Shown: in pieces, positions 2,325 to 19,965 of the stretch
How the letters are laid out: every line of letters starts with the position of its first letter
Position numbering within the stretch: the first letter of the stretch is position 1
IMG/VR virus record: IMGVR_UViG_3300033143_000287
Coordinates: 1 to 21,577 of that record
Direction: 5' to 3' (one strand)
DNA length: 21,577 nucleotides
Origin: a virus
Made by a program: the position numbers and the translations under genes
Notes under the pieces: generated by a model
Database searches by the model: none
Seen by the model: the letters and a program-made list of their open reading frames with translations, nothing else
What the model was told of the DNA's origin: nothing

Positions 2325-2365
2325 CTCTACAAAGCCATACTTTATTATATCAGGAGAACATGGAA

Positions 2366-3013
2366 ATGGAAAACAAGAAATTTGAACAATTAATCGATCT
2401 CATTATTAATGAAGACGAAGAACAGGCGAAAGAACTGTTCCACGAAATCGTGGTTGCTAAATCTAAAGAGATTTATGAATCAATCATGGAAGACGAAATC
2501 AAGGATTCTGATGACCTCGAAGAGGGCATGGGCGGACAAGTCGGTGATCTTGCTGACGAAATCCAAGCAGAAGAATCAGGCATTGCTGAAGACGAAGAAG
2601 AAATCGATATCGATTCTGAAGAAGTCTTTGACATCGAAGGTGATGATGAAGTAGATGCAACACTTGATATCGAAGCAAACTCATCTGAAGAAGTAGAAGA
2701 TGCAGTTGTAAGAATTGAAGACAAACTTGATCAATTATTAGACGAGTTTGAAGAAATCATGGCAGATGAAGATGAACTCAAAGGCCGTGATGACGAAATG
2801 GATGCTGACCTACATGACATCGAAGATAAAGAAGATGACATCGAAGGCGACATTGAAGACCAAGAAGTAGACGTAGACGTTTCTGTTGACGATGAAGAAG
2901 TAGTTGCTGAAGCAATTAATCTTCCTAAAGTAACAGCACATATGGGAGACAACGGTTCAAATACTAAATCTCCAGTAGACGCAAACTCAGGTCAAAAAGG
3001 AATGGACTGCTAA
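2366..3013 (+). CDS. Acidic prohead core protein (gp68-like), main reading frame
   Basis: A strongly acidic protein of about 215 residues, dominated by Glu and Asp, with a helical stretch VVRIEDKLDQLLDEFEEIM and the motif NTKSPVDANSGQKGMD near its end. It sits between the portal and protease, where marine T4-like phages carry the prohead core protein that fills the scaffold core and is cleaved by gp21 (a VxRIEDKLDQL-type helix and an N(K/T)KSP motif are recalled family features). Two ATGs are possible (2360, 2366). The ribosome site AGGAGA (2352-2357) is 2 bases from the first and 8 from the second. Other genes here have GGAG 7-9 bases before ATG, so 2366 is preferred. The frame stops at TAA 3011-3013, but family-like sequence continues in the +1 frame (3009-3140), so this is probably not the true end. 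Confidence 0.85.
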   Translation: MENKKFEQLIDLIINEDEEQAKELFHEIVVAKSKEIYESIMEDEIKDSDDLEEGMGGQVGDLADEIQAEESGIAEDEEEIDIDSEEVFDIEGDDEVDATLDIEANSSEEVEDAVVRIEDKLDQLLDEFEEIMADEDELKGRDDEMDADLHDIEDKEDDIEGDIEDQEVDVDVSVDDEEVVAEAINLPKVTAHMGDNGSNTKSPVDANSGQKGMDC

Positions 3014-3140
3014 AGACGTAGATGGCGCATCTTCATTCCAGAATGTTCCCGGTAATAACAAGGGACCTAAACTTAGTGCCGCACCCAAGCCCGTAACATC
3101 ACAGGCTGAAGGTACAAACACTAAATCTGTAATAGACTAA
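3009..3140 (+). CDS. Frameshifted C-terminal tail of the prohead core protein (+1 frame)
   Basis: Reading from GCT at 3009 in the +1 frame gives 43 residues (AKDVDGASSFQNVPGNNKGP, then KLSAAPKPVTSQAEGTNTKS and VID) to TAA 3138-3140. This stretch has no ATG of its own. It ends in NTKSVID, echoing NTKSPVD just before the frame break, and fills the gap to the protease gene exactly. It therefore looks like the proper C-terminus, giving a product of about 257 residues if one base is removed or skipped near 3004-3010. A genuine frameshift mutation, a sequencing error and programmed +1 frameshifting are all possible; error is the simplest. Confidence 0.8.
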   Translation, partial: AKDVDGASSFQNVPGNNKGPKLSAAPKPVTSQAEGTNTKSVID

Positions 3141-3153
3141 GGAACTGATACAA

Positions 3154-3795
3154 ATGGCTTTGTATCTTAAAGAACACTTAACATTCGACCGTGCGGAAAT
3201 GATGGTCGAATCAGTTAAAGAAGGTGATTCAGATTTGAAGACTCTTTATATGAAGGGTATCTTCATTCAGGGAGGGGTAAAGAACGCAAATGAACGTGTT
3301 TACCCCGTAACTGAAATCGAAACTGCTGTAGACACCTTGAATGATCAGATAAAAGACGGTCATTCAGTACTAGGTGAAGTAGACCATCCAGATGATTTAA
3401 AAATAAACTTAGATCGTGTTTCACATATGATTACTAATATGTGGATGGACGGGCCTAACGGCTACGGCAAATTAAAGATTTTACCGACTCCAATGGGGAA
3501 GTTAGTTCAGACCATGTTAGAGTCAGGGGTAAAACTCGGAGTATCTAGTAGAGGTAGCGGAAACGTTAACGATTTAGATGGCCGAGTCAGTGATTTTGAA
3601 ATAATCACTGTAGATATTGTTGCCCAACCAAGTGCTCCTAATGCATACCCTAAAGCAATATACGAGGGTCTTATGAATATGACCAACGGACATAAAGTTT
3701 TAGAAGTTGCAAGAGAAGCAAGAGGCAATAAACAAGTAGAACGGTTTTTGAAAGACGAAGTAACTCGTCTTATCAAAGACTTAAAAATCGACTAA
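3154..3795 (+). CDS. gp21: Prohead maturation protease gp21
   Basis: A 213-residue serine protease of the T4 gp21 / herpesvirus-assemblin-like fold (peptidase U9/S78 group). It is built into the prohead core, self-activates, and cleaves scaffold and capsid proteins at [LI]-x-E sites. Visible catalytic motifs are GEVDHPD with the putative catalytic His78, GVSSRGSG with Ser131/Ser132 as nucleophile candidates, and TVDIVAQPSAP with Asp154 and the conserved PSAP turn. Length matches the T4 enzyme (212 aa). AAGGA precedes the ATG by about ten bases. It follows the frameshifted core tail by 13 bases and precedes the scaffold gene by 19, as in T4. Confidence 0.96.
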   Translation: MALYLKEHLTFDRAEMMVESVKEGDSDLKTLYMKGIFIQGGVKNANERVYPVTEIETAVDTLNDQIKDGHSVLGEVDHPDDLKINLDRVSHMITNMWMDGPNGYGKLKILPTPMGKLVQTMLESGVKLGVSSRGSGNVNDLDGRVSDFEIITVDIVAQPSAPNAYPKAIYEGLMNMTNGHKVLEVAREARGNKQVERFLKDEVTRLIKDLKID

Positions 3796-3814: not shown

Positions 3815-4921
3815 ATGTTAGATGCTATCAAACCATTAATTGATTCAGGTCTTATTAATGAAGATGTTGCAGGTGAATTAGAAAGCACTTGGGAATCTAA
3901 ATTAACTGAGGCTAAAGATCAAGTTCGTGGTGAACTCAGAAATGAATTCGCACAACGATACGAACATGACAGAAGTGTGATGGTGGAAGCCCTTGATAAG
4001 ATGATTACAGAATCTCTAAGTGAAGAAATTAAAGAATTTCACGAGGAGAAAACTGCAATTAACGAAGACCGCGTAAAAGCAAAAATGAAACTTAAAGAAA
4101 GTGCGAAGAAATTTAATAACTTTATGGTAACTAAGTTAGCAGAAGAAATTAAAGAACTACGTGCTGATCGTAAGATTCAGTTGGAAAACCAAGATAAACT
4201 TCAAAAGTTTATTGTTCATGCATTGGCTAGAGAGATCAAAGAATTTGCTCAGGATAGACAAGCAGTGGTAGAACAACGAGTCAAGTTAGTAGCAGAAGGA
4301 CGCACAAAACTAGAAGCATTGAAAGACAAGTTTGTCTCTGAAAGTGCCGCTAGATTGAGCAAATCTGTCGCATCTCATCTTAAAGGTGAGTTATCACAAC
4401 TTAAGGAAGATATTCAAATTGCAAGGGAGAATAACTTCGGTCGTAAGATATTTGAAACATTCGCAGGTGAATTTAGCACAACTTATCTTAATGATAAGGC
4501 TGAAACACGTAAGATCGTTTCTGTATTAGAAGACAGAGAAAAAGAACTTGCTGAATCAATGGAAAAACTTGCGAAAGCAACGCAAATCATTGAATCAAAA
4601 GAACGTGAAGTTAACATTATTAAAGAATCTACTCAACGTGAAAAGACTTTAGACAATTTAGTGTCATCTTTAAACAAAGAGAAGGCTCAAGTAATGCGAT
4701 CTTTATTAGAAAGTGTTCAGACGCCAAAACTGAAGAACGCATTTGATAAGTATTTACCAGCAGTATTGAACGAAGGAAGTACAAAAGAGAAGACTGAAAA
4801 GGCTCCTCTTACTGAATCTGTTTCAACTGTAAGAGATGGTAATAAATCTGCCAAGAAAGAACAAGAGGTTGAGGTAGATGACAGCAATGTTATCGATCTT
4901 AAGCGCCTGGCAGGGCTTTAA
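3815..4921 (+). CDS. gp22: Prohead scaffolding protein gp22
   Basis: This 368-residue, almost wholly helical and highly charged protein is the main component of the T4-type prohead core, on which gp23 assembles and which gp21 then degrades. It contains about four degenerate repeats of the form L(A/S)xEIKEFxxDR, with EIKE at residues 71-74, 111-114 and 140-143 and a weaker copy near 190. Long heptad-like stretches follow (about residues 225-290) before an acidic C-terminus ending in NVIDLKRLAGL. Many L-x-E and I-x-E tripeptides give the protease abundant cleavage sites. The ribosome site GAGGGG lies about 10 bases before the ATG. T4 gp22 is 269 aa, so this version is longer. Confidence 0.93.
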   Translation: MLDAIKPLIDSGLINEDVAGELESTWESKLTEAKDQVRGELRNEFAQRYEHDRSVMVEALDKMITESLSEEIKEFHEEKTAINEDRVKAKMKLKESAKKFNNFMVTKLAEEIKELRADRKIQLENQDKLQKFIVHALAREIKEFAQDRQAVVEQRVKLVAEGRTKLEALKDKFVSESAARLSKSVASHLKGELSQLKEDIQIARENNFGRKIFETFAGEFSTTYLNDKAETRKIVSVLEDREKELAESMEKLAKATQIIESKEREVNIIKESTQREKTLDNLVSSLNKEKAQVMRSLLESVQTPKLKNAFDKYLPAVLNEGSTKEKTEKAPLTESVSTVRDGNKSAKKEQEVEVDDSNVIDLKRLAGL

Positions 4922-4956: not shown

Positions 4957-6156
4957 ATGTCACAAGTACTCTTAGAAAGCCGTTGGGACGAGACAAAAGA
5001 CGCCCTGTTAGAAGGCTTAAAAGGCACTCGCCGATCAACAATGGGTGTTGTCCTTGAAAACACTCGCAAAGGTCTCTTAAATGAGAATGCTACCGCAGGT
5101 AGTACCTCTGCAGGAAATATTGCTACACTTAACCGTGTGATTTTACCAGTAATTCGTAGGGTTATGCCTACTGTTATTGCTAACGAACTAGTCGGCGTTC
5201 AGCCAATGACTGGTCCTGTTGGACAGATTCACACTTTACGTGTACGTTACGCACAGTCTTTGACTGATAATTCAGCAGCCGCTACTTCTGTAACTGCTGG
5301 TGAAGAAGCATTATCACCATTCAAAATTGCACAAGCATACTCACGTACTGCTAGTGGAACTGCGACTACTACTTCTTATACAGGTGCTGATACAGCAACT
5401 TTAGAAGGAAACGGTGGTAAGAACATCAGTGTGCAAATCTTACGTCAGGCAGTTGAAGCCAAATCACGTAAGTTACAAGCACGTTGGACTTTTGAAGCCG
5501 CACAAGATGCTCAATCTCAACACGGAATCGATGTTGAAGCAGAGATCATGGCCGCTTTAGCACAAGAAATCACTGCTGAAATCGATCAGGAGATTTTACT
5601 ATCTCTTAGAACGTTGGCAGCAACTGAGTTCACTTATAACCAGGCAGCGGTATCAGGTACTGCTACTTACGTTGGTGATGAGCATGCCGCATTAGCAGTT
5701 CTTATCAACAGAGTTGCAAACTTGATTGCACAAAGAACACGTAGAGGCGCAGGTAACTGGGCTGTCGTTTCTTCTGCCGCATTAACTGTATTACAATCTG
5801 CTACTACATCAGCATTTGCACGTACAACTGAAGGTACTTTTGAAGCACCTACTAACACTAAGTTTGTTGGTACGTTGAACGGCGCTATGCGTGTTTTCGT
5901 TGATTCATATGCTCCTGATACTCAAGCAGTATTAGTTGGATATAAAGGATCATCTGAAACTGATGCGGCGGCATTCTACTGCCCATACATTCCATTAATG
6001 AGCAGTGGTGTTGTACTAGATCCATCAACATTCGAACCAGTCGTTTCATTTATGACACGTTACGGATATGTAGAGTTAACTAACACTGCATCTTCATTCG
6101 GTAACGCGGCTGACTACGTTGGTGAAATCGCAGTTCAAAACTTAACTTTCCAATAA
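4957..6156 (+). CDS. gp23: Major capsid protein gp23
   Basis: A 399-residue HK97-fold major capsid protein of the T4 family that forms the hexamers of the head. Family landmarks are the segment SAGNIATLNRVILPVIRRVM (residues about 51-70) followed by PTVIANELVGVQPMTGPVG, a central WTFEAAQDAQSQHGIDVEAE region with the start of the spine helix, and the end motif FMTRYGYVEL (about residues 365-374). gp21 probably removes the N-terminal propeptide after LNE (E43), just before the Ala/Ser/Thr-rich start of the mature protein. This cleavage is inferred from the [LI]-x-E rule. It is much shorter than T4 gp23 (521 aa), mainly through a shorter propeptide and missing insertions. AGGAG precedes the ATG by nine bases, and a strong terminator follows. 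Confidence 0.96.
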   Translation: MSQVLLESRWDETKDALLEGLKGTRRSTMGVVLENTRKGLLNENATAGSTSAGNIATLNRVILPVIRRVMPTVIANELVGVQPMTGPVGQIHTLRVRYAQSLTDNSAAATSVTAGEEALSPFKIAQAYSRTASGTATTTSYTGADTATLEGNGGKNISVQILRQAVEAKSRKLQARWTFEAAQDAQSQHGIDVEAEIMAALAQEITAEIDQEILLSLRTLAATEFTYNQAAVSGTATYVGDEHAALAVLINRVANLIAQRTRRGAGNWAVVSSAALTVLQSATTSAFARTTEGTFEAPTNTKFVGTLNGAMRVFVDSYAPDTQAVLVGYKGSSETDAAAFYCPYIPLMSSGVVLDPSTFEPVVSFMTRYGYVELTNTASSFGNAADYVGEIAVQNLTFQ

Positions 6157-7239: not shown

Positions 7240-7955
7240 TGGCTAGATGTCGCCCAGAAGATTGTAATTTAGAAACAGACAACTTAACTATAATTTGGTA
7301 TCATAATTATTCAGGTGGCAAGTTTATGGCTAATTGTCTGAGTCTATCTGATCATGGTTTATTCGGTCACAGAGAAATGACTGAAGCACAACTTAGAGGA
7401 GAGTTCTCTCCAGATGATAAATTAAATTATTTGTTAGGTCAACTAGATGAAATAGAAAAAGGTATTTATTGGACCGATCTTAATATATCAGATAATTTCT
7501 TTTTTGGTTTTGATAAAAAAGATTACATCGATCCTTGGAGAGGTATTACATATCATAGTTATGTCAAAGATGTATCTTATGGTGATTATAAATTTTTTAT
7601 AGCATCACATTTTAATCCAGAAGTTATTGAAATTAAAAAGATTTGGAAAAATGCAAATATTATTTTGTTTACAGAACCACATGGTTATGTAGAAAAACGA
7701 GCAAAAAATGATCCTCAAATTAGAGTCTTCTATGATCGATTAGAGTACTATGAAGAAAATCTCGCAGAAATGAGATCATTGCCTAATGTTGTTTATGAAT
7801 TCGATGTGCGAAAGTATGAATCTGAAACAGAAACATTAGATGCAGTAAAAGAAATGTATGATATATTAGGAATAAAAGGATACGATAGAGAAAAACTTGC
7901 TACTTATTATAATCACTGGTATAACAAAATCGAAGAAATTAAATACGAATCGTAG
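7239..7955 (+). CDS. Conserved phage protein with P-loop-like N-terminus, possible sulfotransferase/kinase fold (238 aa)
   Basis: A cytosolic-looking protein of 238 residues. The N-terminal strand-loop-helix NLTIIWYHNYSGGKFMANCL (residues about 15-34) resembles a modified nucleotide- or PAPS-binding loop (SGGKF), as in sulfotransferase-like P-loop proteins. Later segments such as YKFFIASHFNPEVIEIKKIW and NANIILFTEPH, and a C-terminal YNHWYNKIEEI helix, fit an alternating beta/alpha fold. The enzyme class is inference from this motif only. Proteins beginning with a WYHN-x-SGGKF motif are, as I recall, frequent and unannotated in marine phages. ATG overlaps the preceding TAA by one base, implying translational coupling. 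It ends in TAG, the only TAG stop in the window. Its end overlaps the convergent minus-strand gene by 17 bases. Confidence 0.85.
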   Translation: MARCRPEDCNLETDNLTIIWYHNYSGGKFMANCLSLSDHGLFGHREMTEAQLRGEFSPDDKLNYLLGQLDEIEKGIYWTDLNISDNFFFGFDKKDYIDPWRGITYHSYVKDVSYGDYKFFIASHFNPEVIEIKKIWKNANIILFTEPHGYVEKRAKNDPQIRVFYDRLEYYEENLAEMRSLPNVVYEFDVRKYESETETLDAVKEMYDILGIKGYDREKLATYYNHWYNKIEEIKYES

Positions 7956-8292
7956 AATCTACAGACATTTCCATTTGTTTTTTGCCTTCTCGTAGTTTCT
8001 TATTACGCAACCTACTACAATTAGCACAGATTGTCAATATGTTTTCTTTTGCTTTGTTTGTAGGATCAAAATCTCTATATGCAATATCTAACTGAATTAA
8101 GTCTTCAGGCACAAACCCACATTCAATACACATAGTATTTTTCATTGGTATCTTTTTATTGTAGATTGCTTTAGCACAGTCTGTACAATATTTGTGCCAT
8201 TTCTGGAAGCCATGTTTACTGATACCATTTGGTTTCACAAAAGATATGTTGCAATTAGTGCATTTTGGTCGTGCAGGCTGTCTTGTAAGCAT
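7939..8292 (-). CDS. HNH-like zinc-binding protein lacking canonical catalytic residues
   Basis: This 117-residue minus-strand protein has four CxxC pairs: C11/C14, C36/C39, C55/C58 and C89/C92. The segment from CIECGFVPED (55-64) through QLDIAYRDFD to CANCSRL (89-95) aligns with the common phage HNH endonuclease layout C-x2-C-GF...QLD-x-DHIDG...LCANCHRL. At the catalytic positions, however, the Asp-His pair is Ala71-Tyr72 and the His after the last CxxC is Ser93. It is thus probably not a working HNH nuclease, or it uses other residues. The N-terminal half looks like an extra zinc ribbon. No ribosome site precedes the ATG, though an ATAAATA box lies just upstream on the same strand. It is the only gene on the minus strand and overlaps its convergent neighbour by 17 bases. 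Confidence 0.8.
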   Translation of the reverse strand: MLTRQPARPKCTNCNISFVKPNGISKHGFQKWHKYCTDCAKAIYNKKIPMKNTMCIECGFVPEDLIQLDIAYRDFDPTNKAKENILTICANCSRLRNKKLREGKKQMEMSVDSTIRI

Positions 8293-8362: not shown

Positions 8363-8388
8363 CAGTGTACAACAAATGGAATCTACAC

Positions 8389-9921
8389 ATGGCCGCAGAC
8401 AAATTTAATGCATTAACAGGGTATTCAGTAGGACTACCCTCAATAGACGTAGTAGCCGCAAATGGTAATATAGTTACAAATCACAATTACCCTGCAGGTA
8501 ACGTCACATCTAACAGTGTTTATGCAAACAATTACTACTATGCAAACGGTGCCTCATTTTCAAGTGATCCTGCAGGATCAAATACTGAAATTCAATACAA
8601 TAATAACGGTGTATTCGGTGCAAGTGCAAACTTAGTTTTTGATTCAGCAACAGATAGATTAATAACACGCAACCTCTCAGTCGTAGGGGGCAATACACTA
8701 TTAGGTGATGTACAGACTGTAACAATACTAGGTGGAACAAATGGTTATGTTTTACAAACAGATGGCGCAGGTGGATTAAGTTGGACAGCACAATCAGGTA
8801 ATGGTGGCGGTGGAGGCAATGGATCCCCAGGTGGATCCAACATGCAAGTTCAGTTTAATAGTGCAGGTTCATTTGCTGGTGATGCAGGTTTTATTTACGA
8901 TGTAGACGATGATCTATTGACAGCAACTCATATCTCAGGTGAAGCCGGCAACTTATCTAACCTAACCTACTCAAACATTACAGGTATAGGAAACATATCA
9001 GCAATCAATCTTACAGGAGCAAACAATACTGTTTTATATGCCAACGGTGTGTTCGCAGATATCTCAGCAGGAGCAAGTGCAAACTTTGCTAACTATGCAG
9101 GTAACGTTACAGTTGCTAGTCAACCGAATATTACTTCTGTAGGAACATTAACAAGTCTTCAAGTCGGTGGAGGATTATCTGTAGTAGGTAACATCGGCGG
9201 AGCCAATATTGCAATCACAGACACTGCTACATTTACTGGTCCAGTAACCATTGATTCTCTTGGATCACTTGCAGTATCAGGTAATGCAAACTTAATGACA
9301 TCACCTAACATAGAACTTCCAGTAGCAAACTTACATATTGACGGTGGACTCAACGGATATGTATTAGCAACTGATGGTGCAGGAACTCTTTCTTGGACTC
9401 TTAACTCAGGTGGTGGAGGCGGAGGTTCACCAGGTGGAGCCAACACGCAAATACAGTTTAACGATTCAGGTTTGTTTGGTGGAGATGCAAATGTAGTCTA
9501 CAACAAAACAACAAACACGATGACAATGGCAGGCACTCTTGTTGCTAATAACATGACAGTAGGTTCTGGCGCCTACTCATTCAGAACTACAAAAGTTAAG
9601 AATGGTGTAACGACAACAACATCAGCAGTAGAAATTTGTGCAACAGAAGCATCTACTGTATCAGCAGTTGATTATACAATTGTTGCAACTGATCCTGCTA
9701 ACTCAGCCAGACAGACAGTTAAAATAACCTCAGCCGTTTACGGTACTACTGTAAATTATTCTGAGTATGCTACCATTTCCGTAGGAAGTTTGTTAGCAGA
9801 TTTCGCAGTACAGTATGTTCCAGGTGATGCTTTTAGAAATGCTCAAGTAGTTTTATATGCTACTCCTGCAACTACAAATGAGACCACTTACAAGATTTTA
9901 TTAGAAGAATATTCGTCTTAA
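8389..9921 (+). CDS. Modular fibre-like virion protein 1 (510 aa)
   Basis: A Gly/Ala/Ser/Thr/Asn-rich repetitive protein typical of marine phage tail-fibre or capsid-decoration proteins. The start at 8389 is chosen because AADKFNALTGYSVG aligns with the heads of the neighbouring fibre proteins (for example AIKAFNSVAGFSVG). An in-frame GTG at 8365 would lie only three bases from the late promoter box. Modules seen: a YANG tag (about 50), a first NTEIQYN segment (about 66-70), then two copies of a unit GYVLxTDGAGxLSWT, poly-Gly hinge, SPGGxNxQxQFN (about residues 115-168 and 320-370), and an AxQPNITSVGTLTSL unit between them. The C-terminal 90-100 residues form a beta-rich domain related to the ends of proteins 3, 4 and 5. 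Host-surface binding is inferred. Confidence 0.85.
   Translation: MAADKFNALTGYSVGLPSIDVVAANGNIVTNHNYPAGNVTSNSVYANNYYYANGASFSSDPAGSNTEIQYNNNGVFGASANLVFDSATDRLITRNLSVVGGNTLLGDVQTVTILGGTNGYVLQTDGAGGLSWTAQSGNGGGGGNGSPGGSNMQVQFNSAGSFAGDAGFIYDVDDDLLTATHISGEAGNLSNLTYSNITGIGNISAINLTGANNTVLYANGVFADISAGASANFANYAGNVTVASQPNITSVGTLTSLQVGGGLSVVGNIGGANIAITDTATFTGPVTIDSLGSLAVSGNANLMTSPNIELPVANLHIDGGLNGYVLATDGAGTLSWTLNSGGGGGGSPGGANTQIQFNDSGLFGGDANVVYNKTTNTMTMAGTLVANNMTVGSGAYSFRTTKVKNGVTTTTSAVEICATEASTVSAVDYTIVATDPANSARQTVKITSAVYGTTVNYSEYATISVGSLLADFAVQYVPGDAFRNAQVVLYATPATTNETTYKILLEEYSS
8731..8892 (+). repeat. Gly-hinge module, copy 1 (in fibre protein 1)
   Basis: Encodes NGYVLQTDGAGGLSWT, a Gly-rich hinge (GNGGGGGNG), then SPGGSNMQVQF and GDAGF. 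It matches copy 2 at about 9343-9498 in order, spacing and sequence, so the protein carries an internal duplication around two flexible poly-Gly hinges. Confidence 0.8.
9343..9498 (+). repeat. Gly-hinge module, copy 2 (in fibre protein 1)
   Basis: Encodes GLNGYVLATDGAGTLSWT, the hinge SGGGGGG, then SPGGANTQIQF and GGDANV. Second copy of the module at 8731-8892. Confidence 0.8.
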
Positions 9922-9972
9922 AAATAAAAGGACAATAAGTCCGTGTTTAGAGAGAGTTTTTCTGTGTAAGAC

Positions 9973-9979
9973 ATAAATA
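9973..9979 (+). promoter_or_regulatory. T4-type late promoter motif before the second fibre gene
   Basis: CATAAATAC, identical to the box before the first fibre gene and at nearly the same distance (27 bases) from the ATG. A good ribosome site (GGAG, eight bases before ATG 10007) follows. Confidence 0.65.
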
Positions 9980-10006
9980 CTAATTATAGTTTACGGAGAC
10001 CAAACC

Positions 10007-12184
10007 ATGGCAATCAAAGCATTTAATTCGGTAGCGGGATTCTCAGTAGGAGAAACCCCGGCCAACATAATTTTATCGAACGGTTATATCACTACTAATG
10101 GAGCAACGTTTACAGCAAACATTGCGGCATTAGGTGTTTTAACCGACAACTTATATTACGCAAACGGCGTACCTTGGGACTTACAAGAACCAGCAGGTGC
10201 TAACACTCAGATACAGTTTAATGATGACCAAGACTTTGGTGCATCATCTAAATTAACATTTGATACCGCGACTGCTAACTTAGACGTTGACGGAAATCTT
10301 AATCTTACAACAGGTAAGTATTACGGTGACGGTTCTGCATTAACAGGTATTGATGCAACAGGTATTCAAAATGGAACATCAAATGTTCGTATACCAGTCG
10401 CAGATGGCAACATTGAATTAAATGTTGGTGGCGGACTTGAAGCAAACATTACTTCAACAGGAGTAAATGTTGCAGGTACACTGAACGTAACAGGTATTGT
10501 TACTGTACCTAGTACATCTGGTGCTATCGACATAGCATTAGGAACTCCGACTCAAGGATCTTTAACATCTAATGCTTTAACTTTAACAACAGCATCATCG
10601 GTCTCTAATTCAATTGCTCAGTTAAACAATGTATTAGGTAAATTAGTTCCATCAAGTCCAGCAGATTTCCCAGGTGGACAAAGCATTACTATTGCAAGTA
10701 CATCATCATACAGAATGGCATCCGGATTCACTCAGCCAGATAACACAGCAGGTGGAACAGCGGCAGTGTCAGCAGGTACAACAGTATCTAAAACACGTAG
10801 ATCCTCATCATACAATGTTAATGCTATCACAAATACTGGCCCAGGTGATTCAGGAACAATCTCTGTTCAAAAGAATGGTTCAGCCGCAGGTAGCAGAACT
10901 TTAACTACTTCTTTAGATGGCAACGGAACTTACACTGATCTGATTATTACAAACAACGTAGACTACAATGTAGTTGATTCAAGTGTAGCGGCAGGCTTCT
11001 GGTCAGTCTTTACAGCAGATGCATCAGGTACTGTATCAGATGGTTGGAACGAAGTATTAATAGATGATACAGCAACAGCATCTACGAACAAAGAAACTTG
11101 GTACTATGATTCATCGAATCCTGGTACACCTCAGTTTTCATCAACATCTATTACTGCTCCTGGTGGCCCTAGTTATACATACAGTTCAACTGTACCGCAT
11201 TATAACAACACAAACGATTTTGCTATTGCATTTAATGTTAACAGACTATCAGGTAACATGTACCCAACAAGTGATACATTCGTAACAGGATCAAGTGGCG
11301 GAGCATTTGGTTCACCAAGTAGTGTTACATATGCAACTGCTGGAGTAACAACTCCATTAGCACAAGACTTACATGTATCTTCAGGAAGTCAAGCAGTAAC
11401 AACTACAGCATCTATTATTTCAGGATTCGGTTCAAGTGCATCGGGTCCATCAGTATCAGTCTTCAACTCTTATGCAACAGGTGCACAGACATTCAATCCT
11501 GGAAGCACAGTTCTTTATAAGACCGGTACTGCATCTTCTGCAAGTAGAATTGAAGAAGCAAACGTTTATATCGGTTCAACAATTGGTTCTGGATCAGGGT
11601 TAGCACAACGTATTGAAAACCCAGGTTCAACTGATACACCTAGTTTCTCTGCAAGTGCAACTGTGTTTAACAGTGAGACTTCAACATTAGAGACATACGA
11701 CTCAACAGTCGTAGGTGATGTATTAAGCCACGATGAAACTGATTATTCTTCTGGTTATTTACCAGTAGGACCTGACTTATCAGCAGGTAGATCAGGAGCA
11801 CAATATTTTACATTCAAATTTGTAAGAACATCAACATCGAAGTTTGATGTTAAATTTTCAGGAACATTGGCAGGTTGTTGGGTAGCAGTACCCGGATCAA
11901 CAATTGACTCAGCATCTTCATTGAACGGTTGGGTTGATATGTCAACATCTTACGCGGGAGCAGGTGTCCCCGGTGCTAACACAGGCGCTGGTGGTAATGG
12001 TTCAAACGGGTGTGCGTTAGGCGGCGTTATACCTACAGGATCTGCTCAAACAAATAAATCAACAACTGCTACTTTTGGTACAGTAAGTTCATCTAGTACA
12101 TCAACTAATGAAATTTATGTTCGTATCAAATTAACAAGTGGTCAATCGATAACAGCCTTATCATTAGAATCTGCGAGTAACTAA
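10007..12184 (+). CDS. Modular fibre-like virion protein 2 with distinct large C-terminal domains (725 aa)
   Basis: The head AIKAFNSVAGFSVGETPANI matches the other fibre proteins. A YANGVPWDLQEPAGANTQIQ module (about residues 50-70) and an ATGIQNGTSNVRIP segment shared with protein 3 follow. From about residue 190 the protein changes character. A VLGKLVPSSPADFPGG segment leads into long beta-rich domains (about 225-590), including FWSVFTADASGTVSDGWNEV and a VPHYNNTNDFAIAF strand pair. A C-terminal domain (about 605-725) contains YFTFKFVRTSTSKFDVKFSG, CWVAVPGS and GCALGGVIPTG. I recall similar large domains in structural proteins of marine myophages, but no function is established. The C-terminus differs from the VHDG-type domain of proteins 1, 3, 4 and 5. 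Probably an adhesin or decoration protein. Confidence 0.85.
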   Translation: MAIKAFNSVAGFSVGETPANIILSNGYITTNGATFTANIAALGVLTDNLYYANGVPWDLQEPAGANTQIQFNDDQDFGASSKLTFDTATANLDVDGNLNLTTGKYYGDGSALTGIDATGIQNGTSNVRIPVADGNIELNVGGGLEANITSTGVNVAGTLNVTGIVTVPSTSGAIDIALGTPTQGSLTSNALTLTTASSVSNSIAQLNNVLGKLVPSSPADFPGGQSITIASTSSYRMASGFTQPDNTAGGTAAVSAGTTVSKTRRSSSYNVNAITNTGPGDSGTISVQKNGSAAGSRTLTTSLDGNGTYTDLIITNNVDYNVVDSSVAAGFWSVFTADASGTVSDGWNEVLIDDTATASTNKETWYYDSSNPGTPQFSSTSITAPGGPSYTYSSTVPHYNNTNDFAIAFNVNRLSGNMYPTSDTFVTGSSGGAFGSPSSVTYATAGVTTPLAQDLHVSSGSQAVTTTASIISGFGSSASGPSVSVFNSYATGAQTFNPGSTVLYKTGTASSASRIEEANVYIGSTIGSGSGLAQRIENPGSTDTPSFSASATVFNSETSTLETYDSTVVGDVLSHDETDYSSGYLPVGPDLSAGRSGAQYFTFKFVRTSTSKFDVKFSGTLAGCWVAVPGSTIDSASSLNGWVDMSTSYAGAGVPGANTGAGGNGSNGCALGGVIPTGSAQTNKSTTATFGTVSSSSTSTNEIYVRIKLTSGQSITALSLESASN
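10352..10396 (+). repeat. 45-bp near-identical block shared with 12895-12939
   Basis: Encodes DATGIQNGTSNVRIP. By hand alignment 44 of 45 bases match the block in fibre protein 3, with one synonymous difference. The flanking codons are related but less similar. Confidence 0.9.
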
Positions 12185-12186
12185 AA

Positions 12187-15114
12187 ATGAGTATACCTAT
12201 TTCACAAAAAGTCGACCTACTTTATAAACAGGCATTTGGTGTCACTAAAACTGACACAGAATCTAATAAAAGTCCAAGTAACGAGGCTATTGCTAGTCCG
12301 TTATTAAATCGTGGTGATACACTGTGGACACAGGCTGATCAGATCCCAGGAACAGCGGCAGCCGTTGCTAGTATTGTTCAAGCATATACAGGATCTAGTG
12401 CAGTTGAGTGTACAGCAGATAATACTACTGTACCAGTTGGCGGTGTTTACCCCACATGGAAAACTGATTTAACTTATTGGATACCACAAGAATTTGGTGC
12501 TACTTATGCTGTCGCAGTATATGTAGACGATTCAGGAGTTGCAGATCCAACTTCAACAGGTACTCAAATCTTTGGTGCTGGTTCAGGTGGAACTGGAGAG
12601 TTCTTCTATAACTATCAATCAGGTGTTCTTAACTTTATCGGAGAAACAATTCCGACTGCTTTAACAAGTAGTAAAGTTCTTTACATCGTAGGTTATAGAT
12701 ATATTGGTAAAACAGGTGTTACTAGTTTACCAGATTCTCAGATCGGTAATATTGATATCACTGATCAAACATTTACTGGACAAGATACAGATGCTAATAT
12801 TATCTTTACTCCAAATGGCACAGGTCAAGTTGTCACTAGTGGTAACATTACAGCATCATATTTTTATGGTAATGGTTCTCAATTAACAGGAATCGATGCA
12901 ACAGGTATTCAAAACGGAACATCAAATGTTCGTATACCAGCCGCAGATGGTAATATCGAATTAAATGTAGACGGTGGATTAACAGCAAACGTTACTGACA
13001 CTGGCATAGTAATGACTAGTGGTAACTTAAACCTCGGCAATGTTATTGCAACAGGTGTAGGTACATTTACAGGAAATGTTGCAGGTGGAAACATCAGCAC
13101 AGGTGGACAAGCAGATGTAACAGGTAACTTAACTGCCGGCAATATAGACGGTGGTAACTTAGTAGAAGCATCATACTTTACAGGTACATTAATTAATGGT
13201 ACCTCAAACATCACTACAGTAAACAACGGTAACATTAATATCGTATCAGCAGGAAACACAACTGCTGTTATTACTGGCACTGGCGCAAACATCACTGGTA
13301 CACTTAATGCGAACGGAGTAGCAACATTAGGCTCAGTCGTAACAGCACAAGTAACAGGCGCAGGTAGTGGTAATTTAACATTAACAGCGGGTTCAGCAGA
13401 TGACTATGTTGAGATCAGACCTACAGGTACTGGTCAAGTTCACGTCGGTGGATTTAAAATTGAATCAGTTGGTACTCCAACTGCATCAACTGACGCCGCT
13501 ACTAAGCAGTACGTAGATGATGTAGCACAGGGACTTGCAGTTCATGCTCCTTGTGATGTAGCATCAACAAATACATTGGCAACAATGTCTGGTGGTACTG
13601 TAACATATGACAACGGCACAGCAGGTGTCGGAGCGACTCTTACAATTTCTGGTGCAACATTAACAGCAATTGATGGAGTAACTTTAACTACAAATGATAG
13701 AATTTTAATCAAAGACGAATCAACAGGTGCTAATAACGGTATCTATGTATACACAAGTTCAACTGTTTTAACAAGAGCAGATGACTTTAATACTCCGACT
13801 GAAATGGCAGGCGGTGACTTTACGTTTGTTCAACAAGGTACAGTTTATAACGATACTGGTTGGGTAATGACTGATCCAGTAACAACAGTTGGTACTTCTA
13901 CTGTTAACTTTGTTCAGTTCTCTGGTGCAGGATCATTCACAGCAGGTGCAGGTCTTACATTAACAGGTACTGAATTCTCTGTTAACGTTGATGGATTAAC
14001 AACAGACATTCAAGGCGGAAACGTGGTTGTTAAAACTTCTGCTCAGTTAACGACTCCAGATATTGGAGCGGCAACAGGTACAAGTTTAACAGCAACTGGT
14101 AACGTATCAGGTGGTAACTTAACAACAGCAGGAATTGTCTCTGCAACTGGTAATGTAATCGGTGGAAATGTTTATGCTAACTCAGGTATTATAGGAGCAA
14201 CTACATTAACAGGTTCTTTAAGTACAGCGGCACAGCCAAATGTTACATCAGTAGGAACATTAACAAGTCTAACAGCATCTGGTAACATTGATTCTACAAG
14301 CGGCATCTTTAATGGTGACGGTTTTGGATTATCAAACATACCAGCCGCAAACGTAACTGGTTTAAGTTTATCAGGTATTGCAAACGGCACATCTAATGTA
14401 GATATCGCATCAGCAGATGGTAACATCACAATGGGTGTTAACGGCGTTGCTGATATAGTAACTGTATCAGACGGCGGAATTGAAGTAACAGGAACAGCAG
14501 ATATTAGTTCTACTGTAACTGCTCCCGCATTTACTGCTAACACAGGAGTATTCACTGGTGACGGTGGCGGCTTATCTAATGTAGCAGGTGCAAACGTAAC
14601 TGGTCAAGTCGCATTTGCGGCGACTGCTAACGCAGTAGCAGGTGGTAATGTATCTGGTCAAGTAGCAAACGCACTTGTTTCAGGAACAGTATATACAGCG
14701 GCTCAACCTAACATTACTTCTGTAGGCACTTTAACAAGTGTTGCAGTAAGTGGTACTGCTAACGTAGCAGGTAACTTAAATGTAGGTACTAGTGAAATTT
14801 CAACACTAGCGGCAGGCACAGTAACTACTTCATCGACATCTCAAACAGCAATTGCAAGTTTTGCAGTTTCTGGAATTAATGGAATAGAGTTCTTAGTAAA
14901 AGGAATTGACGCAACATCAGGAAACACTTCTGTAGCATCAGTACTAACTGTAACAGACGGATCAACAGTTGATTTCGTTACATACGGTCAGACGTTCTTA
15001 ACAGGAGCGCCTGGTGTATTAGCAGTAGGCTTGAATGGTAGTGATTTAGAATTGTTGGTAACTCCAACATCAACGAACTCAACAGTATGGGTTACACAAT
15101 ATAGGTTTATTTAA
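12187..15114 (+). CDS. Modular fibre-like virion protein 3 with unique N-terminal domain (975 aa)
   Basis: The largest protein here. Its first 200 residues or so differ from the other fibre proteins: ISQKVDLLYKQAFGVTKTD, then NRGDTLWTQADQIPG, a WIPQEFGATYAVAVYVDDSG segment and a VLYIVGYRYIGKTG strand. I recall this head from virion structural proteins of marine T4-like phages, where it may anchor the protein. Next come YFYGNGSQLTGID and ATGIQNGTSNVRIP, alternating TGNVxGGN repeats, a 168-residue ATKQYVD module (13474-13977) duplicated in protein 5, several AAQPNxTSVGTLTSL units, and a C-terminal beta domain (about 95 residues) related to those of proteins 1, 4 and 5. The ATG lies two bases after the preceding stop, so translation is probably coupled. 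Confidence 0.87.
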   Translation: MSIPISQKVDLLYKQAFGVTKTDTESNKSPSNEAIASPLLNRGDTLWTQADQIPGTAAAVASIVQAYTGSSAVECTADNTTVPVGGVYPTWKTDLTYWIPQEFGATYAVAVYVDDSGVADPTSTGTQIFGAGSGGTGEFFYNYQSGVLNFIGETIPTALTSSKVLYIVGYRYIGKTGVTSLPDSQIGNIDITDQTFTGQDTDANIIFTPNGTGQVVTSGNITASYFYGNGSQLTGIDATGIQNGTSNVRIPAADGNIELNVDGGLTANVTDTGIVMTSGNLNLGNVIATGVGTFTGNVAGGNISTGGQADVTGNLTAGNIDGGNLVEASYFTGTLINGTSNITTVNNGNINIVSAGNTTAVITGTGANITGTLNANGVATLGSVVTAQVTGAGSGNLTLTAGSADDYVEIRPTGTGQVHVGGFKIESVGTPTASTDAATKQYVDDVAQGLAVHAPCDVASTNTLATMSGGTVTYDNGTAGVGATLTISGATLTAIDGVTLTTNDRILIKDESTGANNGIYVYTSSTVLTRADDFNTPTEMAGGDFTFVQQGTVYNDTGWVMTDPVTTVGTSTVNFVQFSGAGSFTAGAGLTLTGTEFSVNVDGLTTDIQGGNVVVKTSAQLTTPDIGAATGTSLTATGNVSGGNLTTAGIVSATGNVIGGNVYANSGIIGATTLTGSLSTAAQPNVTSVGTLTSLTASGNIDSTSGIFNGDGFGLSNIPAANVTGLSLSGIANGTSNVDIASADGNITMGVNGVADIVTVSDGGIEVTGTADISSTVTAPAFTANTGVFTGDGGGLSNVAGANVTGQVAFAATANAVAGGNVSGQVANALVSGTVYTAAQPNITSVGTLTSVAVSGTANVAGNLNVGTSEISTLAAGTVTTSSTSQTAIASFAVSGINGIEFLVKGIDATSGNTSVASVLTVTDGSTVDFVTYGQTFLTGAPGVLAVGLNGSDLELLVTPTSTNSTVWVTQYRFI
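12895..12939 (+). repeat. 45-bp near-identical block shared with 10352-10396
   Basis: Encodes the same 15 residues as the block in fibre protein 2, with one base difference. Such identity contrasts with the strong synonymous divergence of the ATKQYVD module pair. Confidence 0.9.
13474..13977 (+). repeat. ATKQYVD module, copy 1 (168 codons, in fibre protein 3)
   Basis: Runs from TPTASTDAATKQYVDD through NNGIYVYTSSTVLTRADDF to AGAGLTLTGTEF. It has the same length as copy 2 at 17529-18032 with no gaps. By hand count about 133 of 168 residues are identical. The ATKQYVD(D/N) start is a common tail-fibre element in many phages. Confidence 0.92.
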
Positions 15115-15116
15115 TA

Positions 15117-16670
15117 ATGGCGATAAGATCCTTTAACTCAGTTGGAGGGTTTTCGGTAGCCGAAACGCCCGTTGAGATAGTAAGTAACGTAGGTAACGTT
15201 ACACCCACTAACTTAGATGTTAGTAGCGGACTATCTGATCTAGGCGCAGTAGGCAACATTACAATTACCGGAGGCTCCGCAAATCAAGCACTAATTACAG
15301 ATGGCTCTGGTGGATTATCATTCGGTGAAGCAGGTCTAGCGGCAAATTCAGCCGCAGTTATGCCCTATATTATTAATTCATCTGAATCATATACAGTAGC
15401 CGCAAATTTACAAGGTCTATTCTCACAACCTATCGAAATAGACGGAGAATTAGATGTAGAAGGTATTCTTATCGAAGTGGGTGTTTCTCAAAACGCAGAA
15501 TCATCACAGATTTATTTCGATAATTCAGGTACATTCTATGGTAACTCAGGATTTACATTTAATATTACATCAGGTAATTTAGATGTACCAGGAAATATTA
15601 ATCCTACTGGAAGTATTATTCCTAGTGCAAATGTCACATACGATTTAGGATCAGCAAATTATCGTTGGAATGATCTATATCTTGCAGGAACTTCTATATT
15701 CTTAGGTGGTGGTACAATAGCAGAAGCCGCAAACGGCGCTATGGTCATGACTAACGGAGACGGTGGACAATTTATATTCGATGGTACTGATGATTTTCAT
15801 ACATATGCAATAGCACATGGTAATTCTAATGTATCTATAGACACATCAGGATCAGCAGTCACAATGGGTGTTTCTGGAAATGCTGATGTATTTACAATGT
15901 CAGGAGGCGGTGTCTTAACTACGACAGGTAATGTCGTACCTTTAGGTATTAAAACTGACAATTATTATTATGCAAATGGCGATGCAATCACTTTTGGTGA
16001 ATCAGCGGCAGGCGCAAACACACAAATTCAGTTTAATAATCAAGGAAGTTTCGGTGCGACTTCAAACTTAACGTTTGATGATGCTTCTGGAGTACATAAA
16101 CTGACTGCAACAGGTAATGTTCAAGGTAACAATTTCATTGCTACATCAGGAACTGTACAATATGGTACTCCTCCTGGATCAGGTACTATATCAGTAGATA
16201 CAAGTACAACTACAGCAGGTGTATTTACATCAGGTATTTCTGATGTAAACATCGGATTACAAGCAAACATTGTAATGTGTGGTACTGGAAAAACACTGAC
16301 AGCAAGAGGAAACGTTTCTGCTGACAATCTAAATTCTACGACACTTTCAGTCGAAGACTTTTATAGCAGTAGAACAGCAGTATCAGTTGGTAGTGCAAAC
16401 ACTACAATTGACACGTTTGGAGCATCAGACTATCGATCAGCAAAATACACAATGAAAGTTTCAGATAACACAGGTTATCAAGCATTAGAAGTTTTATTAG
16501 TACATGACGGAGTGACTCCGATTATGACTGTATATGGTTCATTATCGACTACTGGTTCGGACTTAGTAACACTAAATACTACTATGAGCGGTACAAATGT
16601 ATTGCTACGAGCCACACCTGTCAATAGCAGTACAAGTGTGAATTTAATGGGGACATATGTACCAGACTAA
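15117..16670 (+). CDS. Modular fibre-like virion protein 4 (517 aa)
   Basis: The head AIRSFNSVGGFSVAETPVEI matches proteins 1 and 2. The next 85 residues or so (LGAVGNITITGGSANQA through QPIEIDGELDVEGILIEV) are a module shared with protein 6. Then come a QIYFDNSGTF repeat, an ATYDLG-type element reading YDLGSANYRWNDLYLAGTSI (about 176-195) often seen in marine phage fibres, YYYANGDAITFGESAAGANT and QIQFN (about 281-304), and a C-terminal domain with YQALEVLLVHDG and MTVYG. The domain closely resembles the end of protein 5. The ATG lies two bases after the preceding stop. Probable receptor-contacting or decoration protein; the exact virion location is unknown. Confidence 0.86.
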   Translation: MAIRSFNSVGGFSVAETPVEIVSNVGNVTPTNLDVSSGLSDLGAVGNITITGGSANQALITDGSGGLSFGEAGLAANSAAVMPYIINSSESYTVAANLQGLFSQPIEIDGELDVEGILIEVGVSQNAESSQIYFDNSGTFYGNSGFTFNITSGNLDVPGNINPTGSIIPSANVTYDLGSANYRWNDLYLAGTSIFLGGGTIAEAANGAMVMTNGDGGQFIFDGTDDFHTYAIAHGNSNVSIDTSGSAVTMGVSGNADVFTMSGGGVLTTTGNVVPLGIKTDNYYYANGDAITFGESAAGANTQIQFNNQGSFGATSNLTFDDASGVHKLTATGNVQGNNFIATSGTVQYGTPPGSGTISVDTSTTTAGVFTSGISDVNIGLQANIVMCGTGKTLTARGNVSADNLNSTTLSVEDFYSSRTAVSVGSANTTIDTFGASDYRSAKYTMKVSDNTGYQALEVLLVHDGVTPIMTVYGSLSTTGSDLVTLNTTMSGTNVLLRATPVNSSTSVNLMGTYVPD

Positions 16671-16691
16671 TAATTAGGGATAAACAACAAC

Positions 16692-19247
16692 ATGGCAACT
16701 AGAAATTTTAAAGTCAAAAACGGGTTAGAAGTTGGCTTAGCAACGATTTCAGCATCAACAGGTAATTTAAGCACAGTAAATGCTGATCTTGGTAATCTGG
16801 CCGTTGCCAACTATTTCGAGGGAGACGGTTCTAAATTAGAAGCACTCGCAGGTGGTAATGTATCAGGGCAAGTAGCCAATGCATTAGTATCAGGAACAGT
16901 ATATACAGCGGCACAACCCGCAATCACATCAGTAGGTACGTTAACAGGATTAACAGTATCAGGCATTACAGCAACTGGATCATTACGTACAGATAATCTA
17001 CAATATGCGAATGGAACTGCATGGGATTTACAAGAACCAGCAGGATCAAATACACAAGTACAATATAATAATGGCGGAGACTTTGGAGCAAAGTCTACTT
17101 TTACTTTTGATAGTGCTAGTGATCGATTAACAATCGGCGGAAATATAAACGCAGGCAACGTAGTGGCTACTGGTTTAGTGCAAGGTGGCACATTAGCAGG
17201 ATCATTAACAACAGCCTCACAACCAAATGTTACCTCATTAGGAACATTAAGTGGACTAACAGTTACTAACCCAATTGTAGGTTCAGTTACAGGTACAGCA
17301 TCAACTATTACAACAGCGGCACAACCGAACATAACAAGTGTGGGAACTCTTTCTTCATTAGACGTAACAGGAAACGTAGATACATCTGCAAACTTAGTTA
17401 CTGATAGAATTATCGGTAAGAGTTCAGGAATTTCTGTTACAGCAATAGGAACTGACCAAGACATTACTCTTATTCCTACTGGAACAGGTGCTACTTCTGT
17501 ATCATCTAAACGAATTAAAGACTTAGCAACGCCTACAGCATCAACTGATGCGGCTACAAAACAATATGTAGATGACGTTGCACAAGGATTAGCAGTACAC
17601 GCACCGTGTGACGTTGCAACTACTGGCACACTTACATCTATCACTGGTGGAACTATTACATATGACAATGGTACAGCAGGAGTAGGAGCAACTTTAACAA
17701 CATCGTCTGGTAATTTTGACACTATCGACGGCTACTCAGTACAAACTAATGACAGAGTATTAGTTAAAGACGAAGCAACAGGTGCTAATAATGGTATCTA
17801 CGTTAAGACTTCATCTACAGTACTAACAAGAGCAGATGATTTCGATACACCAACTGAAATGGCAGGTGGAGATTTCACATTCGTATCAAACGGCACATCA
17901 TTTAATGATTGTGGTTTTGTTATGACGGACCCCGTTGCGACGGTCGGAACATCAGATGTGACATTTGTTCAATTCTCAGGAGCAGGTACTTATACTGCAG
18001 GCGCAGGCTTAACACTAACAGGATCAGAATTTAAGATTACTGATACAGCAGTCACTGCAGGATCATATGGTAATGGAACACATAATGCTACATTTACAGT
18101 TGATCAAAGAGGACAATTAACGGCCGCGGCGAATGTTGCAATTACAGCAAACGCAGAAACATTAGTCGGAACAGAATTAAAATCTACAGTTACAGATTCA
18201 AGTCTTACAAGTGTAGGAACATTAGGATCTTTATCAGTAACTGCAAACGTCGGCGCTGGAAATGTCAACGCAACAGGTGGTGTATTTACATACGTATCAG
18301 GCGATGGTGCAAACTTATCATCGATTGCAGGTGGAAATGTAACTGGTACTGTAGCAACAGCAACAACAGCAGGAACCGTAACAACAGCGGCTCAACCCAA
18401 TATTACAAGTGTTGGAACATTATCAGCACTAACAGTTACAGGTATTACAGCAACTGGATCATTACGTACTGACAATTTACAGTATGCTAATGGATCTGCT
18501 TGGGACTTACAACAACCAGGTGGAAGTAATACACAAGTACAATTTAACAACCAAGATCAGTTTGGTGGATCCGCAAACTTTACATTTGATACAGCAGATA
18601 GTAACTTAGACGTTGATGGCAACGTCACAGTATCAACTGGTAAGTTTTATGGAGACGGTGGCGGACTATCTGCTATAGCAGGTGCTAATGTAACTGGAGA
18701 AGTTACAAATGCCGCAACAGCAAATGCAGTTGCAGGCGCTAATGTATCAGGAGAAGTATCGTTTGCCGCTACTGCTAACGCAGTTGCTGGAGCAAATGTA
18801 TCAGGTACTGTATCAAGTGCAACTACTGCTACAACAGCGGGAACAGTTACGACTGCCGCACAACCGAATATTACAAGTGTCGGAACTTTAACAAGTGTTA
18901 CAACTTCTGGCGCAGTTGATGCTGTTTCATTTGGAACTAATCGTTCTAATGTCGCAGTCTCAACAAATACAGTGGTTGATGAGTTTGATCCTAGTGATTA
19001 TAGAACTGCAAAATATGTAGTTTCTGGATCAGGTGATGACGGATATCAATCAGCAGAAGTATTAATGGTACATGATGGTACAGATGCATTTATTACTGTT
19101 TACGGTACTATTTGTTCTAATACATCAGCAGACCTCGTAGAGTTTTCTAGTAACATCAATGGTGTATCTGGAAACTGTACATTGTATGCAACAACAGGTA
19201 GCAATAATACAAAAGTCAATATGGTAGTAGACTATATATTGACTTAA
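16692..19247 (+). CDS. Modular fibre-like virion protein 5 (851 aa)
   Basis: The head ATRNFKVKNGLEVG differs slightly from proteins 1, 2 and 4 but matches protein 6 (ALRDFKVKNGL). The body is built almost entirely of shared modules. These are VSGQVANALVSGTVYTAAQP near the start, two YANGxxWDLQxPxGSNTQVQ units (about residues 108-130 and 597-625), the second copy of the 168-residue ATKQYVD module (17529-18032), five AxQPxxTSxGTL units, and three tandem 18-residue AGANVxGEV repeats at 18678-18839. The C-terminal domain (NTVVDEFDPSDYRTAKYVV..., YQSAEVLMVHDG, ITVYG) is related to those of proteins 1, 3 and 4. Ribosome site AGGGA is about 13 bases before ATG. Confidence 0.87.
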   Translation: MATRNFKVKNGLEVGLATISASTGNLSTVNADLGNLAVANYFEGDGSKLEALAGGNVSGQVANALVSGTVYTAAQPAITSVGTLTGLTVSGITATGSLRTDNLQYANGTAWDLQEPAGSNTQVQYNNGGDFGAKSTFTFDSASDRLTIGGNINAGNVVATGLVQGGTLAGSLTTASQPNVTSLGTLSGLTVTNPIVGSVTGTASTITTAAQPNITSVGTLSSLDVTGNVDTSANLVTDRIIGKSSGISVTAIGTDQDITLIPTGTGATSVSSKRIKDLATPTASTDAATKQYVDDVAQGLAVHAPCDVATTGTLTSITGGTITYDNGTAGVGATLTTSSGNFDTIDGYSVQTNDRVLVKDEATGANNGIYVKTSSTVLTRADDFDTPTEMAGGDFTFVSNGTSFNDCGFVMTDPVATVGTSDVTFVQFSGAGTYTAGAGLTLTGSEFKITDTAVTAGSYGNGTHNATFTVDQRGQLTAAANVAITANAETLVGTELKSTVTDSSLTSVGTLGSLSVTANVGAGNVNATGGVFTYVSGDGANLSSIAGGNVTGTVATATTAGTVTTAAQPNITSVGTLSALTVTGITATGSLRTDNLQYANGSAWDLQQPGGSNTQVQFNNQDQFGGSANFTFDTADSNLDVDGNVTVSTGKFYGDGGGLSAIAGANVTGEVTNAATANAVAGANVSGEVSFAATANAVAGANVSGTVSSATTATTAGTVTTAAQPNITSVGTLTSVTTSGAVDAVSFGTNRSNVAVSTNTVVDEFDPSDYRTAKYVVSGSGDDGYQSAEVLMVHDGTDAFITVYGTICSNTSADLVEFSSNINGVSGNCTLYATTGSNNTKVNMVVDYILT
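17529..18032 (+). repeat. ATKQYVD module, copy 2 (168 codons, in fibre protein 5)
   Basis: Same length as copy 1 (13474-13977). The first 30 residues are identical, yet 19 of those 30 codons use a different synonymous triplet by hand count. Confidence 0.92.
18678..18839 (+). repeat. Three tandem 54-bp repeats (18-residue AGANVxGEV unit)
   Basis: Units 18678-18731 and 18732-18785 each encode AGANV(T/S)GEV followed by a (T/S)(N/F)AATANAV tail. A third, more diverged unit begins at 18786. Units differ mainly at synonymous bases and at one or two residues. The same motif occurs once or twice in protein 3 (near 14582-14660). Confidence 0.85.
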
Positions 19248-19294
19248 TACAATTTAATTAATCTAGTCTAAAAGACTATGGGGAATATGGAACC

Positions 19295-19876
19295 GTGGCA
19301 TTAAGAGACTTTAAAGTCAAAAATGGCTTAACAACGCCAACACTTACCGTTAACACAACTTCCGATCTGGGAGCAGTAGGTAATGTCACTATTACAGGTG
19401 GATCAAGCGGTCAAGCAATCTTAACAGATGGTAATGGAGTATTATCATTTGGCAGTCCTACAATGGATGACCCTATTGCACCTATGCCCACACTTATTTC
19501 TTCTGGAGAAACAGCAGAAGTTCCCTCTAATTATCAAGGTATATTTGGATATCCTATTACTGTCGATGGCACCCTAGAAGTTAATGGTGTGTTAGTTGAC
19601 GTTAGTAGTGACAGTTTACGAGTCGGTGGTGCCAACACTCAAATTCAATTTAACAACGGCACAGACGAAAGTATGGGAGCCAGTACGAATTTAACATTCA
19701 ACACTACTACCAATGTTTTGCAAGTGGATGGAATAACACAAACAGGGAGATATTCTAATTTAGCACTACCAGATAGTGTTCAAGGAGGAATCATTTTTAT
19801 CACAAATGGTAATAACAAACCAGCATACGGCGATGGAACTAACTGGTATTATTTTGATAATACACAAGTTACATAA
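19295..19876 (+). CDS. Short modular fibre-like virion protein 6 (193 aa)
   Basis: Starts with GTG at 19295. This is chosen because ALRDFKVKNGL then aligns residue for residue with ATRNFKVKNGL of protein 5; nearby ATGs (19278, 19287) are out of frame and stop at once. Residues about 22-105 are the module shared with protein 4 (LGAVGNVTITGGSSGQA ... YPITVDGTLEVNGVLVDV). One ANTQIQFN unit follows (about 113), and then a C-terminal GGIIFITNGNNKPAYGDGTN segment ending WYYFDNTQVT. I recall this type of ending from other marine phage fibre proteins. It lacks the VHDG-type C-terminal domain. A complete short member of the set, not an obvious truncation, since the end motif is intact. Confidence 0.85.
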   Translation: MALRDFKVKNGLTTPTLTVNTTSDLGAVGNVTITGGSSGQAILTDGNGVLSFGSPTMDDPIAPMPTLISSGETAEVPSNYQGIFGYPITVDGTLEVNGVLVDVSSDSLRVGGANTQIQFNNGTDESMGASTNLTFNTTTNVLQVDGITQTGRYSNLALPDSVQGGIIFITNGNNKPAYGDGTNWYYFDNTQVT

Positions 19877-19910
19877 ATCAACGTTTATACGGGGTAAAAA
19901 GATAAAAACG

Positions 19911-19917
19911 ATAAATA
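19911..19917 (+). promoter_or_regulatory. T4-type late promoter motif before fibre protein 7
   Basis: ATAAATA (in CGATAAATAG) lies in the 89-base gap between proteins 6 and 7, 48 bases before the ATG at 19966. The sequence matches the boxes before fibre proteins 1 and 2 but the spacing is longer. Confidence 0.5.
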
Positions 19918-19965
19918 GAATTATGCTGAAATAAGGCAAATTTAACTATAATAGGGTAATAGGAA

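Follow-up and report, generated by a model that had tools for sequence, protein, structure and literature searches.

A frame break in the prohead-core-like gene of a T4-like virus record is very probably the scar of a short deletion rather than ribosomal recoding

The window analysed here is an entire, stand-alone virus record of 21,577 bases (IMG/VR record IMGVR_UViG_3300033143_000287). It opens on a cluster of head genes in the order portal (phrog_213; 143–1966, +), a 76-aa gene, an acidic gene (2360–3013, +), head maturation protease (phrog_207; 3154–3795, +), scaffold-like gene (phrog_10922; 3815–4921, +) and major head protein (phrog_138; 4957–6156, +). The last three are intact, and the protease gene was used as the anchor for comparisons. 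The head cluster of phage T4 runs from the portal (gp20) through the core proteins (gp67/gp68), the protease (gp21) and the scaffold (gp22) to the major head protein (gp23), and the window resembles it in placing a small gene and an acidic gene between portal and protease, followed by a scaffold-like gene and the major head protein. Unlike its T4 counterpart, the acidic gene is truncated, and no named family could be detected for it: Pfam returned nothing, and the matches in PHROGs were all weak, each seen for a single member out of 13. Because the gene order is that of a T4-type head cluster, naming it a prohead-core gene on the basis of its position and composition is reasonable, and we refer to it as the core gene.

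Beyond the head genes, positions 8365–21577 hold a series of large ORFs that begin alike and contain recurring modules (AQPNITSVGTL, for example), which probably constitute an array of paralogous structural or fibre proteins; the one ORF of the series that was submitted to Pfam (10007–12184) gave no match. A 117-aa ORF on the opposite strand (7939–8292, −) carries paired CxxC motifs and is possibly an HNH-like nuclease, and it too had no Pfam match.

Re-reading the sequence bore out the two frames described in the earlier note. The core ORF encodes 217 aa, compared with mostly 248–274 aa for the intact forms in relatives, and ends ...NTKSPVDANSGQKGMDC (C-terminal residues NSGQKGMDC) at a TAA at 3011–3013. 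The +1 frame is open for 43 codons from 3009 to a TAA at 3138–3140 (+), reads AKDVDGASSFQNVPGNNKGPKLSAAPKPVTSQAEGTNTKSVID, and finishes 13 nt upstream of the protease ATG at 3154. Separate translation of this tail is ruled out, as its frame contains no ATG, GTG or TTG. At 41 of 42 residues the tail is identical to the C-terminal end of the core protein in a near relative whose gene is intact (L001), a match that shows the frame not to be open by chance and upholds the earlier note's view that the tail is part of the core protein. The changed codons between the two are 17 synonymous and one non-synonymous, and since the tail is conserved in this manner, the loss of bases that put it out of frame is recent. 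The out-of-frame remnant shows no sign of decay.

Relatives were gathered from IMG/VR by a search with the protease, which yielded 80 loci, and the set was then enlarged with the major head protein as query. A locus was considered testable if it matched the protease and had sufficient DNA 5' of it; there were 138 of these, or about 125 distinct contigs once repeats are discounted. In all 138, the core gene runs in one frame through the junction region and keeps its C-terminal tail; the tail region varies in length and sequence among the more distant relatives. The alignment across the junction that the earlier note had proposed thus finds the homologues continuous, with the tail in the core frame. 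None of them ends at GQKGMDC, an ending that the note would have read as detaching the tail from the protein, and none requires a shift. At 136 loci, a single long frame ends no more than 75 nt from the protease. The other two (L034 and L052) looked broken at first, but their core genes are intact and extra sequence separates core from protease: a GIY-YIG-like ORF in L052 (4196–4996; AYVYRWTHVPTGKWYVGSRTAKGC), and in L034 a short remnant related to it, in which a MALY start is repeated, just before position 5001. The protease start is a probable homing endonuclease site.

Homologues L001–L018, all intact, are like the window in gene order, sequence, C-terminal tail and, for the most part, the QKGMD stretch, and differ from it in that their core frame is continuous. 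Several also carry a stretch of about 850 nt between the portal and the 76-aa gene that the window lacks. In L001 this stretch is a 284-aa gene (L001:2920–3774), absent from the window at 1966–1982; an insert of similar size is found there in several other relatives, while L006 is without it. The GCSFGD motif near the N-terminus of the L001 protein, together with a DVHP motif, suggests a putative SGNH/GDSL-type hydrolase. The window's core protein, for its part, has about seven extra residues in the DKEDDIEGD region (about 2827–2850) that were not seen in 12 aligned relatives, and which possibly represent a short duplication.

Comparison at the break itself revealed a gap. The nearest relatives (L001–L003) have 56 nt more than the window between GGAC (or GGAT) and TGCTAAAGACG, and L004, L005 and L007 have 59 nt more at the same place, whereas the window joins the two sides directly at about 3004–3008 (+), just 3' of the A-rich stretch. 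As 56 leaves a remainder of 2 on division by 3, the tail falls in the +1 frame. GACT lies at both edges of the missing stretch in L001; at least 4 nt of such shared sequence occurred in 3.2% of random deletions (20–199 nt) in the core gene, and the repeat lends a copying jump only modest support. A degenerate pattern of the junction matched no other IMG/VR record and nothing in the GTDB genome set. The indel suspected in the earlier note was therefore plausible in kind but misjudged in size and place: the cause is not one base too many, the difference from relatives being 56 or 59 nt, and taking one base away would not give back the relatives' protein. A single-base insertion in the A-rich run is ruled out, as the run and AAGGA are identical to those of close relatives. 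Nor does that stretch appear fragile or stimulating, as had been proposed; it is conserved coding sequence (for QKGMD) in unbroken close relatives, in which CAAAAAGGAATGGA, 5' of the junction, is identical.

From these comparisons, we consider the break almost certainly to be what a deletion of about 56 nt left behind in the core coding sequence, with no ribosomal recoding. A stretch of that length, not a multiple of three, would have been lost between two copies of GACT, leaving the last 42 conserved codons out of frame. The loss may have arisen by a copying or template jump between these short repeats, either (i) in one defective phage genome, or (ii) in the amplification, sequencing or assembly of the record.

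The portal gene carries two further lesions. One is an in-frame TGA at 1619–1621, where L001–L003 have AGA (Arg) and nearly all other relatives an Arg codon; conserved coding sequence continues beyond it, up to 1966. The other is an exact 30-nt tandem duplication (590–651, +) that adds 10 residues and is absent from all relatives covering the region. Neither was found in other IMG/VR contigs, and an internal stop occurs in only one of 98 related portal loci (L091). The record thus has three private lesions within 2.4 kb of head genes, two of them frame-breaking and one a duplication. Elsewhere the record is clean and bears the mark of strong purifying selection: upstream of the TGA, the portal differs from L003 by 42 synonymous and four non-synonymous codons, which speaks against generally poor-quality sequence. 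As a sign of relaxed selection, the stretch 3' of the TGA proved uninformative, as intact relatives likewise differ from one another there by a high proportion of non-synonymous changes. When the relatives' proteins were compared with the whole window, no further broken frame was found in the parts that they cover; at the DNA level, relatives cover the window well as far as about 8.7 kb, more sparsely up to about 14 kb, and poorly from there on.

The earlier note had raised a more exciting reading, a programmed +1 frameshift at or before the TAA at 3011, stimulated by the upstream AAGGA acting as a Shine-Dalgarno-like element and yielding two forms of the core protein. Programmed +1 frameshifting of the prfB type combines a slippery codon at the stop with just such an element, and the window does have a purine-rich AAGGA a few codons upstream of its in-frame stop, as well as an open downstream frame of conserved sequence. 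However, the same AAAAAGGAATGGA is ordinary coding sequence in close relatives without the break, so the element is not specific to a shifting gene, and the codons leading to the stop (AAA GGA ATG GAC TGC TAA) form no +1 slippery site known to us. Further, predicted RNA folding of the 100 nt starting at the stop is no stronger than that of shuffled controls (z = −0.06), even a shifted product would be missing about 19 residues that close relatives have, and the frame arrangement recurs neither at the testable loci nor, as a junction, elsewhere in the two databases; the deletion, moreover, accounts for the break. Because the arrangement is unique and lacks both a downstream fold and a known slippery site, a programmed shift at the core gene is very unlikely. 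A phage that really carries the deletion and appends the conserved tail to its shortened core protein by shifting +1 at the newly formed junction seems more far-fetched still. We give equally little credence to reassignment or suppression of TGA or other stops, through which both interruptions would be read. The portal TGA, with its conserved downstream sequence, speaks for such a reading, but it is the only TGA interruption in the parts covered by relatives, which have Arg at that site, and no tRNA gene was found in the 21,577-nt window; on these grounds TGA recoding was rejected. Moreover, read-through of the TAA at 3011 would stay in the wrong frame and could not reach the tail.

If the deletion is taken as real, it could mark a viable lineage that makes do with a shorter core protein because the C-terminal tail is dispensable. 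Such tolerance would fit the variability of the tail among more distant relatives and the precedent of T4, in which assembly proceeds without the core protein gp68 (PMC9958956). We regard a viable lineage as improbable, though, given that every testable relative retains the tail, that the remnant is undecayed, and that the portal gene is broken in the same record; the T4 portal is needed for head assembly, initiating capsid assembly and hosting the packaging motor (PMC9958956). It is because of the two additional private lesions in the portal gene that a non-functional genome copy or a faulty record appears likelier than a viable variant. Between those two the balance is nearly even, tilting slightly toward a faulty record.

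The deletion reading removes one candidate for programmed recoding. It also flags this virus record as one with three private head-gene lesions, whose portal and core gene calls and proteins are unfit to serve as references. Finally, the comparison with relatives shows what a complete member of this unnamed family of core genes, located 5' of the protease across a large group of T4-like phages, truly looks like.
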